Of a DNA stretch of 64,000 bases, positions 21,229-24,154 are shown in pieces (position 1 is the first letter of the stretch; each line of letters opens with the position of its first letter). Source of the stretch: Halobacillus kuroshimensis DSM 18393. Its GTDB lineage: Bacteria; Bacillota; Bacilli; Bacillales; Halobacillaceae. A model generated the notes under the pieces. It was not told the DNA's origin, searched no databases, and saw nothing but the letters and a program-made list of their open reading frames with translations. The stretch is from positions 434,001 through 498,000 of the forward strand of contig NZ_AUDY01000008.1 in the NCBI RefSeq assembly GCF_000425705.1, given 5' to 3'. Position numbers and translations under genes: made by a program.

Positions 21229-22188
21229 ATGAATGGAAAAATAGTCGTTGATCATTTATCTAAAACGTTTAAAAAAGGCGGGGTGCAGGCGGTCAAGGAT
21301 GTTTCTTTTAAGGTGGAAGAGGGAGAGTTCTTCGCCTTTCTCGGCCCAAATGGAGCTGGGAAATCAACGATTGTGCAGATTTTGACTACCTTGATGAATG
21401 CTACGTCAGGAACAGCTTTTGTTGCAGGCTTTGACGTAATCAAGGAACCCGAAAAGGTGAGGCGCCACATAGGAGCAGCCCTTCAGGAGACAGGGGTGGA
21501 TCCGGATCTGACCGGCCGGGAAATGCTTGAGCTACAGGCATGGATTTTCGGGTTTGGTAAAAGGGAGGGGCGTCTTCGCGCAGAAGAGCTTCTGGATATT
21601 GTGCAGCTGACGGAAGCTGCTGAGCGAAGAATCGGGCGGTATTCCGGAGGCATGCGCCGGCGTCTTGATCTGGCGCTTACCCTTGTGCATGAACCTGCCG
21701 TCCTTTTTCTGGATGAGCCGACAACGGGGTTGGATCCATCCAACCGGATGGCCGTGTGGGAGGAGTTGAGGCGGTTGAATAAAGATAAGGGAACGACTAT
21801 TTTTTTAACCACTCAGTATTTGGAGGAAGCTGACAACCTGGCTGATCGGATCAGCATTATTAATGATGGAGAAATCGTGGCTTCCGGAACACCCAAAGAG
21901 CTTAAAGCACGAATCGGGAGCGACCTTATTGCTCTCACTCCTGTGGATGGAGGAGACGAAGACAGGACACTCCATCTGTTGAAATCCGGTCTGATGGATG
22001 CGGATGTTATTAGAAAACAGGAAAAGATTCTGATTTACGTTGAGGAAGGGACGAGACAGCTGTTGGAAGTGGCACGTATTCTCGATCGGGAAAATATTGA
22101 GGTCGAGGATATCCAATTATCTTCTCCGACCCTGGATGATATTTTCCTTAAGATTACAGGAGAGGGGAAGAGAAGCTATGAGCAGTAA
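21229..22188 (+). CDS. ABC transporter ATP-binding protein (DrrA-type)
   Basis: 319-aa ATPase with Walker A GPNGAGKST (about residues 43-51), Q-loop ALQETG, signature YSGGMRRRLD, Walker B LFLDEPTTGLD and H-loop region TTQYLEEAD. The C-terminal ~80 residues match the DrrA-type extension found in drug and lipid exporters. The permease gene overlaps its end by 11 nt, so the two form one exporter. No substrate can be named from sequence. Confidence 0.93.
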   Translation: MNGKIVVDHLSKTFKKGGVQAVKDVSFKVEEGEFFAFLGPNGAGKSTIVQILTTLMNATSGTAFVAGFDVIKEPEKVRRHIGAALQETGVDPDLTGREMLELQAWIFGFGKREGRLRAEELLDIVQLTEAAERRIGRYSGGMRRRLDLALTLVHEPAVLFLDEPTTGLDPSNRMAVWEELRRLNKDKGTTIFLTTQYLEEADNLADRISIINDGEIVASGTPKELKARIGSDLIALTPVDGGDEDRTLHLLKSGLMDADVIRKQEKILIYVEEGTRQLLEVARILDRENIEVEDIQLSSPTLDDIFLKITGEGKRSYEQ

Positions 22189-22957
22189 TGTTTGGAGAGA
22201 TACATGGCTGATGACGAGAAGAAACGTGAAAACGACATTAAGAAATCCGTTTTCTTTTATTCCCAATCTGATGATTTCTGCTTTTTTTCTATTGGTCTAT
22301 GAAGGAGGGTTGAGCGGAATCTCCCAGCTTCCGACGTTTGAGGGAGCCAACTACTTAGCTTTCATTCTGCCTGTATCCATCGTATCGGCGGCCATCGGTG
22401 GAGCCGGTGGGGCGGGGCAGAGTATTGTGAAGGACATTGAAAATGGGTTCTTTTCCCGGCTGCTGCTGACGCCTGCTTCGCGTCTTTCGATTGTGCTTGG
22501 TCCGATCATTGCGGGGATGCTCCAGCTTTTTGTGCAGACGCTGCTTATTATCGGGATAGCTTTTTTGCTGGGACTTGAAGTCCAGACAGGGATGGGAGGC
22601 GTACTGTTTGTTCTCCTGATCGCCATCGGATGGGGACTTGCCTTTGCCGGGTACTCCGCCGGTGTTGCTTTACGGACAGGGAACGCGCAGGCTGCTCAGG
22701 CTGGAACGTTTATCTTTTTTCCTCTTATATTTTTAAGCACCACATTCGTCCCCTATGAGCTCATTGATGCGCAGTGGCTTAAGATTGCTGCTGTTATCAA
22801 TCCGACCACCTATATTTTTGAGAGTATGCGGACTGTTTTGATTGACGGCTGGGTCTTCTGGGATATGATGCAGGGAGTGATCGCCATTACCATCGTCAGT
22901 ACACTGACCATTACTTTTGCGGCAGTCTCAGCAAAGCGGGCGGTTTCCCGTGGATAA
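22178..22957 (+). CDS. ABC-2 type permease (DrrB-type)
   Basis: 259-aa membrane subunit with six hydrophobic segments and the ABC-2 pattern (TRRNVKTTLRNP at the N-terminus, FFPLIFLSTTFVPYELI near segment five). ATG 22178 is chosen for its GAGGGGAAGAG site and because it overlaps the ATPase gene, as is usual for this pair. It forms the pore of the exporter with the preceding ATPase. Confidence 0.9.
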   Translation: MSSNVWRDTWLMTRRNVKTTLRNPFSFIPNLMISAFFLLVYEGGLSGISQLPTFEGANYLAFILPVSIVSAAIGGAGGAGQSIVKDIENGFFSRLLLTPASRLSIVLGPIIAGMLQLFVQTLLIIGIAFLLGLEVQTGMGGVLFVLLIAIGWGLAFAGYSAGVALRTGNAQAAQAGTFIFFPLIFLSTTFVPYELIDAQWLKIAAVINPTTYIFESMRTVLIDGWVFWDMMQGVIAITIVSTLTITFAAVSAKRAVSRG

Positions 22958-22986
22958 TTCCGGAAAAAGGAAGATTTTGGCCTTCC

Positions 22987-22995
22987 TGGTATGGT
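22987..22995 (+). promoter_or_regulatory. Candidate extended -10 for the rsgA leader
   Basis: TGGTATGGT (TGn plus TATGGT), without a good -35, about 35 nt before the leader ORF. Readthrough from the ABC genes is the alternative source of transcript. Confidence 0.35.
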
Positions 22996-23018
22996 AGACT
23001 AAGAATATTAATGAAGCA

Positions 23019-23120
23019 GGGAGTGGTGTTTATGTCAAAAAACAGACGATTTATAACCATTAATATCCAAAAAAACATAGGAGGACACCACTCGTAGCGT
23101 CCTCCACATACTCAGGAGGA
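23019..23120 (+). promoter_or_regulatory. Putative translational attenuator of rsgA
   Basis: Four segments can pair alternatively. Segment 1 GAGTGGTGT (23021-23029) is complementary to segment 2 ACACCACTC (23085-23093). GGAGGAC (23080-23086), overlapping segment 2, pairs with segment 3 GTCCTCC (23099-23105). Segment 3 also pairs with segment 4, GGAGGA (23115-23120), the rsgA Shine-Dalgarno. So 1:2 plus 3:4 hides the start site and 2:3 frees it. A 21-codon ORF runs through segment 2, the layout of erm/cat leader attenuators. Confidence 0.6.
23032..23097 (+). CDS. Leader peptide ORF upstream of rsgA, 21 aa
   Basis: ATG at 23032 with GGGAG (23019-23023) at 8-nt spacing and a TAG stop at 23095-23097. 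The peptide begins MSKNRRFITIN and ends GGHHS. Its Shine-Dalgarno lies in segment 1 of the leader structure and its last five codons in segment 2, so its translation would directly change the folding. I infer a regulatory peptide, not a functional protein product. Not recognised from any known leader. Confidence 0.55.
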   Translation: MSKNRRFITINIQKNIGGHHS

Positions 23121-23125
23121 ATGGA

Positions 23126-24154
23126 ATGAAACGGAAGGATTTTACAACCTATTTTAAAGAACAGCTGCAGGATGGAGAAAAGGCCGGCAGGGTGACGACA
23201 TCCACCCATGGCATTTACACAGTGGCAGACGATGAAACGGAACGCTTCGGTGAAGTGTCCGGACGCTTCCATTATCATACGGTTGAAGACAGCGGTTTTC
23301 CTGCTGTAGGGGACTGGGTTGTCATTGAGCCCTATGATGAAGGCAGACGTGTGAAAATTCAGCGAGTATTAAACAGGAATACGGTCTTCTCCCGTAGTGC
23401 ACCTGGGCAGTCCAACAAAGAGCAAGTGATAGCGGCCAATGTGGATGTTGTCTTTGTCGTCACAGCGTTGACTCAGGAAATGAACCCGAGAAGACTGGAA
23501 CGGTATATAGAGCAGGTGTATGAGAGCGGCGCTCGTCCAGTTATCGTTTGTACGAAGAAGGATTTATCTACGTCGCTTCATAAACAGCTGTTTCAAATTG
23601 AACAAGCAGCCCCCGGAGTCCCTGTGTATCCTGTAAACAGTCTTCATGGAGAAGGGCTGGAGTTATTGAAACATGAATTAACACCTGGACAGACCGTTTC
23701 TTTGGTCGGCTCTTCGGGTGTAGGGAAGTCCACATTAATGAACGCCCTGCTTGAAAAAGAAGTGCAGGAGACACAGGCGGTGAGAGAAGAAGATGATCGC
23801 GGGCGTCATACGACGACACATCGGGAGTTATTCAGCCTGCCTGACGGCTCCTATATGATGGATACGCCGGGAATGAGGGAGCTTCAGCTCTGGGGAAACG
23901 GTGAAGGGAATCTTGATTATACGTTTTCTGATATTGGAGCTTTAAGCGCCGGGTGCAGGTTTCGCGACTGCCGTCATGAAGAGGAACCAGGTTGTGCGGT
24001 CCAAGCGGCCATTCAAAGTGGAGAGATGGAAGTGAGCCGGTTGAAAAGCTACAACAAATTGAAGCGTGAACGGAGACGTCTGGAGTTGAAGGATAAGTAC
24101 GGAACTCATCGGACGAACCGTATGCTGCATGGTCCCAATGCTGTCAAAGAATAA
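23126..24154 (+). CDS. rsgA: Ribosome small subunit-dependent GTPase A (RsgA/YjeQ-type paralog)
   Basis: 342-aa circularly permuted GTPase: N-terminal OB fold, then G4 (CTKKD), G1 (GSSGVGKST), G3 (DTPGM), ending in a zinc knuckle with Cys-x4-Cys-x-His-x5-Cys (CRFRDCRHEEEPGC). Family members assist late 30S maturation and hydrolyse GTP on the small subunit. It stands alone rather than in the prpC-prkC cluster where B. subtilis RsgA sits, so it may be a second copy. AGGAGGA is 5 nt before ATG 23126 and is the site that the leader can mask. Confidence 0.93.
   Translation: MKRKDFTTYFKEQLQDGEKAGRVTTSTHGIYTVADDETERFGEVSGRFHYHTVEDSGFPAVGDWVVIEPYDEGRRVKIQRVLNRNTVFSRSAPGQSNKEQVIAANVDVVFVVTALTQEMNPRRLERYIEQVYESGARPVIVCTKKDLSTSLHKQLFQIEQAAPGVPVYPVNSLHGEGLELLKHELTPGQTVSLVGSSGVGKSTLMNALLEKEVQETQAVREEDDRGRHTTTHRELFSLPDGSYMMDTPGMRELQLWGNGEGNLDYTFSDIGALSAGCRFRDCRHEEEPGCAVQAAIQSGEMEVSRLKSYNKLKRERRRLELKDKYGTHRTNRMLHGPNAVKE

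Follow-up and report, generated by a model that had tools for sequence, protein, structure and literature searches.

A candidate ribosome-operated translational attenuator in front of a second rsgA gene in Halobacillus kuroshimensis and its relatives

Work on RsgA has treated it as a housekeeping factor of 30S assembly. The genome of Halobacillus kuroshimensis DSM 18393 encodes a canonical RsgA (C1:646819-647697) and, in addition, a paralog with 33% identity to it over the matched part. The paralog, labelled rsgA2 here, lies in the window, that is, the whole stretch of 64,000 nt that was analyzed (C1:434001-498000 of genome G000). An earlier note had claimed that a short ORF and four pairing segments form an Erm/cat-like translational attenuator upstream of this gene. 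The elements concerned are as follows.

22987..22995, plus strand: extended -10-like promoter element TGGTATGGT, 36 nt 5′ of the leader ATG
23016..23031, plus strand: segment 1, the ribosome binding site of the leader ORF, with a perfect core at 23021-23029
23032..23097, plus strand: leader ORF, from ATG 23032 to TAG 23097, 21 codons, MSKNRRFITINIQKNIGGHHS
23080..23098, plus strand: segment 2, of which 23080-23086 pairs with segment 3 and 23083-23098 with segment 1
23099..23105, plus strand: segment 3, GTCCTCC, anti-SD-like, with 23080-23086 or 23115-23120 as partner
23114..23120, plus strand: segment 4, AGGAGGA, the Shine-Dalgarno (SD) motif of rsgA2
23126..24154, plus strand: rsgA2, a paralog of the RsgA family of circularly permuted GTPases, 342 aa

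The membership of RsgA2 in the RsgA GTPase family was evident from its matches to Pfam RsgA_GTPase (E 1.3e-50) and TIGR00157 (162.7 bits, cut-off 100), and from a GTPase domain with P-loop, switch, and a C-x4-C-x-H-x5-C zinc motif. In an alignment, GSSGVGKST, GRHTTTH, DTPGM, and CRFRDCRHEEEPGC lined up with the RsgA chain 2ykr_W. The one named relative found was Halobacillus litoralis, whose protein has 79% identity. A DrrA/DrrB-like ABC exporter pair lies just 5′ of rsgA2, at 21229-22957 of the window, and the permease end of the exporter is also found upstream of rsgA2 in several relatives.

Reading of the sequence bore out the short ORF with a good ribosome binding site: the SD motif GGGAG stands directly 5′ of ATG 23032, and the gap between the leader stop codon and the rsgA2 start codon, ATG 23126, is 28 nt. 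The three perfect pairings of the earlier note could likewise be read directly, namely 9 bp between the segment 1 core GAGTGGTGT (23021-23029) and ACACCACTC (23085-23093), 7 bp between GGAGGAC of segment 2 (23080-23086) and GTCCTCC (23099-23105), and 6 bp between TCCTCC (23100-23105) and GGAGGA (23115-23120), which holds the rsgA2 SD. The 1:2 duplex turned out to be longer than first described, with 14 pairs between 23016-23031 and 23083-23098; it spans the leader stop codon and reaches the GGAC of segment 2, so that 1:2 and 2:3 compete directly. A pseudoknot of 1:2 and 2:3 was rejected, because the extended 1:2 overlaps segment 2 and there is no spacer before segment 3. Transcription of the leader would be expected to start near 23002, judging from the -10-like box; a good -35 was not seen at this promoter.

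The minimum-energy fold predicted for 22960-23140 includes both 1:2 and 3:4 (z -1.98), and the folding z of the 108-nt leader was -4.61. When the 3′ region of the ORF was shuffled, 23 of 5,000 versions formed a perfect 9-bp helix with the 18 nt that precede the leader ATG, and the duplex energy of 1:2 had a z of -3.5. The GGAGG..CCTCC..GGAGG part alone is common: it occurs at 14 places in the genome, equal to the reversed control, and in 8 of 100 window shuffles. None of 100 shuffles contained the window motif, but the query was the exact sequence, making this a weak control. Inspection by eye of 7 of the 13 other genomic places revealed no arrangement of a leader plus a gene. As the motif of segments 2 to 4 is common on its own, the case depends on the full arrangement and its conservation.

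The conservation was analyzed in 44 genomes of the family (Halobacillaceae). rsgA2 was present in 37 of them (E <= 1e-60) and canonical rsgA in 43, including all 37 with rsgA2. The upstream regions of all 37 rsgA2 genes were read, and 35 leaders were tabulated, with L004 (a duplicate of the named copy L003), L033 (missed by the SD pattern), and L039 (excluded as too divergent, with about 42% identity) left out. The four-segment layout in front of the paralog was kept throughout: all 35 have an ORF of 20–25 codons led by an SD motif, its 3′ end holds a GG-rich segment 2, and segment 1, segment 3 (CCTCC), and the rsgA2 SD are in place as well. The spacing between the stop codon and segment 3 is variable. 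Within the ORF body, in-frame stops were found in 0/35 leaders versus 22/35 in each of the other frames. A -10-like box (TATAAT, TATACT, or TATGGT, the last being derived from the window itself) was present 31–36 nt 5′ of the leader ATG in 35/35, with a TG extension in 28, and a transcription start downstream of 23060 is thus not indicated by the sequence. Segment 4 was identical across the alignment except in L020; few columns are conserved other than those of the start region, codons 2–3, and the arms of the pairings. The mean folding z over the 35 leaders was -2.96 (best -5.0, weakest -0.4), and 27 leaders were below -2.

Within the family, the arrangement is also specific for rsgA2. The GGAGG/CCTCC/GGAGG motif was found in 32 of 35 rsgA2 upstream regions versus none of 30 canonical ones, the latter being 30 of the 43 family matches, all from rsgA2-bearing genomes. 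A long ORF, in the window's genome a kinase-like one, adjoins all 30 canonical upstream regions, and in 8 of these regions an SD-led ORF occurred sporadically, which shows that the ORF criterion alone is lax. A covariance model built from the family leaders and scanned with stricter filters (87 candidates scored per genome) gave a single match in each of 36 genomes out of 44, always adjoining rsgA2, and no match in any of the 7 genomes without rsgA2; the rsgA2 genome G037 also lacked a match. Matches in training genomes are expected by construction, and the result consists of the single-match pattern and the absences. That the pairings arose by chance around a spurious ORF has a practically negligible probability: the frequency of the GGAGG/CCTCC/GGAGG part in the genome speaks for it, but the conservation in 35 leaders already refutes it, as do the covariation described below, the model matches, the retained frame, the folding z values, and the shuffles.

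Another reading is that the leader binds a protein or ligand, for example in a feedback by RsgA2 or a 30S protein, and that the ORF is incidental. In its favour, the target belongs by family to the 30S factors, and segment 3 resembles the 16S anti-SD. We regard this reading as very unlikely, because the ORF is held in frame (stops in 0/35 versus 22/35) and column conservation outside the paired arms and the beginning of the ORF (start region and codons 2–3) is small. In addition, comparison of the window with Rfam yielded no family at gathering score, and comparison of 20 loci yielded only unrelated matches below that score.

Next to conservation, covariation of the pairings was quantified. 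For 1:2, the duplex energy was -14.8 kcal/mol for cognate versus -11.2 kcal/mol for non-cognate arms, and none of 20,000 partner permutations was as good (n=35). For 2:3 and 3:4, 1,625 and 17,780 of 20,000 permutations were as good; these two pairings are nearly invariant in the family and therefore not testable by covariation there. Of the covariation sought by the earlier note in related leaders, the part concerning 1:2 was thus found, while 2:3 and 3:4 vary too little. In a per-leader pair table of 40 leaders (the 35 plus L033, L040-L042, and L087), the 1:2 helix comprised 12–18 pairs in 38, with bulges in some, several positions exhibited at least three types of pair, and the types at positions -12, -11, -10, and -5 included swaps such as GC/TA/CG and TA/AT/GC. 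This table was fitted leader by leader and leans towards pairing, whereas the permutation test treats cognate and non-cognate arms alike. RNAalifold on a MAFFT alignment reported 2:3 alone, with one pair showing a compensatory change; 1:2 is missing there, we think, because MAFFT shifts the 1:2 arms by one base in two subgroups, and 1:2 was assessed instead by the alignment-free duplex tests and the pair table. Two leaders of genus g6 have a weak 1:2 (-3.3 and -5.7).

The computed energies have the same order in all 35 family leaders: 2:3 is stronger than 3:4, and 1:2 plus 3:4 is stronger than 2:3. This predicted order is the one required of a switch, and together with the minimum-energy fold it agrees with the proposal that 1:2 plus 3:4 would mask the rsgA2 SD and 2:3 would free it. 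The effect of a ribosome on the leader was modelled in two ways, with an assumed value for the footprint size in both. In the first, looser model, hairpins may close around the ribosome; in the main model, they are barred from spanning it. In the main model, the mean openness of the rsgA2 SD over 35 leaders was 0.17 in free RNA. It was 0.35–0.49 while the leading edge of the ribosome had not reached segment 2 and was at most 12 codons away from it (bins holding ten or more leaders), 0.13–0.21 during passage over segment 2, and 0.44–0.68 with the ribosome further on, near the leader stop. The early gain was at least 0.1 in 25/35 leaders, at least 0.2 in 19, and under 0.1 in 10; openness fell over segment 2 in 34/35. 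For the window, the values by P-site codon (start codon = 0) were 0.36–0.50 at codons 0–10, 0.17–0.18 at codons 11–17, and 0.80–0.89 at codons 19–21. In the looser model, the window opened exclusively at codons 0–3 or at the stop end, and 25/35 leaders gained at least 0.1 at codons 0–3. Under either model, a ribosome dwelling by the leader start is thus predicted to favour the ON state in most leaders, and the models support the claimed logic by which a ribosome on the first half of the leader would free rsgA2.

The opening near the leader stop would also be expected from plain translational coupling, in which ribosomes at the end of the leader would shield segment 3 or initiate anew 28 nt on, so that the RsgA2 level would just reflect translation of the leader, no stalling being sensed. 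The short gap in the window fits this alternative too. Nevertheless, we consider it unlikely: coupling does not need the 1:2 lock, which covaries over helices of 12–18 pairs in 38/40 leaders, and the spacing between stop and segment 3 is not constant. Furthermore, at 40 loci elsewhere, described below, the leader stop is at least 100 nt from rsgA2, with a terminator-like hairpin in between.

The architecture, its conservation, the covariation of 1:2, the energy order, and the restriction to rsgA2 within the family have been shown by computation. The best explanation, and in our opinion a probable one, is that rsgA2 is controlled by a ribosome-operated translational attenuator, in which slow or parked early ribosomes would raise the RsgA2 level. 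In free RNA, both start sites would be locked, that of the leader by pairing of segment 1, its SD region, with the ORF 3′ end, and that of rsgA2 by pairing of its SD with segment 3. As segment 1 is the ribosome binding site of the leader, the OFF fold should limit initiation at the leader, too. We infer that ribosomes load on nascent RNA, before segment 2 has been made. A ribosome dwelling on the first ten or so codons would keep segment 1 off segment 2, the freed segment 2 would capture segment 3, for which it is the stronger partner, and the rsgA2 SD would be exposed. A fast-moving ribosome would cover segment 2, 3:4 would re-form, and rsgA2 expression would stay low. RsgA2 would accordingly be induced by slow elongation over the early codons or by ribosomes that sit at the start of the leader. 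Presumably, the leader is translated and dwelling ribosomes are the natural signal; translation inhibitors would be the cause of the dwelling, and RsgA2 would help the ribosome under that stress.

What could be sensed was addressed by analysis of the leader peptides. The leader body is nearly neutral (pN/pS 0.74 for 22 close pairs of the family). The macrolide arrest motifs RLR, IFVI, and IAVV were found in 0/35 family peptides, and in none of these does one residue occur three or more times in succession; such runs were also lacking in 39 of 40 peptides of the terminator-type leaders described below. With a near-neutral body and no known macrolide motif, no dedicated arrest peptide is apparent, and no stall site is pinpointed. 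Codon 2 encodes Ala, Ser, or Thr in 28/35 family leaders. These residues are favourable contexts for chloramphenicol and linezolid, and the observation is taken as a lead and nothing more.

These results bear on the kinship with known attenuators. In ermC and cat, a leader ORF is followed by 1:2 plus 3:4 against 2:3, with the target SD in 3:4, and segment 1 lies inside the leader coding region. The rsgA2 leader appears to share the short leader with its own SD and retained frame (35/35) and, in terms of pairing and energy, the mutually exclusive folds with the target SD in 3:4. In contrast, its segment 1 precedes the ATG (23016-23031) and does not consist of leader codons, a conserved arrest peptide is lacking (pN/pS 0.74, motifs 0/35), and the target is a GTPase. 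The description as Erm/cat-like therefore holds for the logic alone, and the rsgA2 leader is not a member of the Erm/cat group. Attenuators of the trp/his type also operate by the logic of 1:2, 2:3, and 3:4, and this likeness in pairing is nearest in the terminator-type rsgA2 leaders; unlike trp/his, the family leaders have no run of control codons (0/35), and the target is not biosynthetic.

Outside the family, 220 of 397 order-level genomes (E <= 1e-50) and 134 of 299 class-level genomes (E <= 1e-45) carried rsgA2-like genes. Two such genes per genome (E <= 1e-50) were observed in G066, G096, G108, G109, G141, G148, G191, G235, G302, and G349. The order sample comprised 60 upstream regions hand-chosen across many families and 17 loci returned by searches (two repeats). 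At least one SD-led ORF was present in 108 of 112 upstream regions (37 family, 75 order) by a rule that is mechanical and lax. Two groups of leaders were sorted by reading. Group A has the SD lock, with arms that are sometimes altered, e.g., GAGCGATG with CATCGCTC in L087; outside the family, the SD region of many group A leaders paired with the ORF end no better than in shuffles. The leaders of group B combine an ORF with a segment 2 resembling ACAGCCC, a segment 3 resembling GGGCTGT, and hairpins that look like terminators. A few upstream regions, e.g., L062, L066, L082, L089, and L092, belong to neither group.

Both pairings of group B stood out in the permutation test: -27.3 for cognate arms versus -21.8 for 2:3 and -13.9 versus -11.4 for 1:2, with 0/20,000 permutations as good in either case (n=40). 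The 40 loci are what remained of 61 after removal of 21 rows with a wrong automatic choice of the ORF (17 up to L044, and L063, L088, L103, and L113, judged not to be group B); with all 61 rows kept, the result was likewise 0/20,000 for both pairings. A terminator-like hairpin was present in 40/40, at least one such hairpin overlapped the predicted segment 3 in 32, and the best-scoring one did so in 28. In these 40 loci, the leader stop is at least 100 nt before rsgA2, and the terminator-like hairpin lies in between. None of 16 group B loci compared with Rfam reached a gathering score. Judged by these sequence features, the putative terminator-type leaders are a distinct, widespread leader class. 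Members are L057-L061, L064, L067, L069-L078, L081, L083-L086, L090, L091, L095, L097-L101, L104-L112, and L114, and they often carry CCATGGGC..CCATGGTTTTT.

The existence of related leaders that finish in terminator-like hairpins could suggest transcription attenuation at the window locus itself. However, there is no T-run after either hairpin from 23097 to 23126, and we hold this alternative to be extremely unlikely; for the window, translational attenuation remains the preferred reading.

Gln-Leu-Asn stands exactly at codons 11–13, just before segment 2, in 6/6 group B leaders that have it (L060, L061, L070, L071, L077, and L078), with synonymous changes and in four families. The pattern was first noticed and then counted, and it hints at a nascent-chain signal. 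Asn-Phe-Ile precedes segment 2 in L057, L059, L067, L069, L081, L091, L101, L104, L107, and L112; it is encoded by the same codons, AAT TTC ATA (ATC in L101), an unexplained conservation at the nucleotide level.

In the class sample, an SD-led ORF was found in 35 of 45 placed upstream regions, 3 of 48 not being placeable. A third kind of leader, mostly from family f68, has GGAATCCTCC / GAGGATTC arms or close variants and a AGGAATCC-like sequence at the rsgA2 SD; it was seen in L131-L133, L136-L144, L146, L147, L149, L150, L152, and L159. In L145, L148, and L158, from a family with large genomes, rsgA2 follows a terminator-like GC-rich hairpin with a T-run, and no clear leader ORF is visible. 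A leader ORF was also present in two named records, Brevibacillus marinus (L261), whose leader peptide is identical to that of the f68 genome L154, and Listeria monocytogenes (L260:589-695), where an ORF of 18 codons, MAIVKMENLIINTGVFYL, precedes an rsgA-like gene and the arms are GGGGGTATT / AATGCTCCC / GGAGC. Four records of the plasmid collection were read. The Lysinibacillus and Streptomyces plasmid copies had no convincing leader ORF, and RsgA relatives on plasmids and phages all had less than 60% identity. On the Lysinibacillus fusiformis plasmid (L262:574-2096), the rsgA-like gene lies immediately 5′ of the fosfomycin resistance gene fosM.

In a tree of 82 proteins, RsgA2 was split from six canonical RsgA proteins with a support of 100/100, and RsgA2 did not group with the canonical genes of the same genomes, in disagreement with canonical orthology. 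RsgA2 is less conserved than the canonical RsgA of the same genomes, e.g., 79% versus 95% in G011. Leader kinds A, B, C, and canonical, assigned by reading of the leaders, require six changes on this tree versus a minimum of three; with well-supported branches alone, two changes are forced for A and two for B.

The closest precedent for the rsgA2 leader is hflXr. According to two papers, hflXr (lmo0762) of Listeria monocytogenes, encoding an HflX-type GTPase, is preceded by the rli80 attenuator with a leader ORF and alternative folds, and a motif named uORFC-6-1 precedes hflX in Bacillales (PMC6310831; PMC8632094). The systems are alike in that a gene for a ribosome-associated GTPase follows a leader ORF and alternative RNA folds are read by ribosomes, while hflXr has HflX as its target, an RLR stalling motif, and a terminator as output. 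The rsgA2 leader differs by the SD lock, by the absence of RLR (0/35), and by the use of the leader SD as segment 1. Because of the hflX precedents, the rsgA2 leader is not a new kind of device. The VmlR leader of Bacillus subtilis is described as combining attenuation of transcription and of translation upstream of a factor that acts on the ribosome (PMC9226507); it can be likened to the rsgA2 leader by this description, but its target is an ABC-F protein. In the open-access literature, no attenuator or leader peptide before rsgA was found among the matches listed, in agreement with the earlier statement that no such control had been described for RsgA.

Three reports concern RsgA or CpgA. 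In E. coli, the gentamicin MIC dropped 2- or 4-fold upon deletion of rsgA, as it did for three other genes (PMC10295648). In B. subtilis, the mRNA of the canonical cpgA rose briefly and then fell under chloramphenicol at the MIC (PMC10100781), and we infer that an inducible spare copy would be useful. CpgA of B. subtilis also has a role in metabolite proofreading (PMC6449344), and by analogy RsgA2 may have a non-ribosomal role.

A wider reading is put forward tentatively, and we give it somewhat less than an even chance: RsgA2 would be an unrecognised family of translation-stress-induced ribosome GTPases in the class Bacilli, the small-subunit counterpart of HflXr, and its ribosome-read leaders would have switched their output between SD lock and terminator more than once while the input was kept. 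As segment 1 of the Halobacillus-type leader is the leader ribosome binding site, this type would, on the same reading, sense ribosomes parked at or just after the start codon. If true, that is the stage hit by 30S defects and by initiation-stage drugs, and the second, faster-evolving RsgA of many Bacilli would be a 30S factor made on demand, as HflXr is. The leaders would form a natural series in which one input has been rewired between translational and transcriptional output, and they would offer a direct test of whether cells sense small-subunit trouble or early-elongation trouble. RsgA2 itself is a possible, hitherto undescribed factor of intrinsic drug tolerance.
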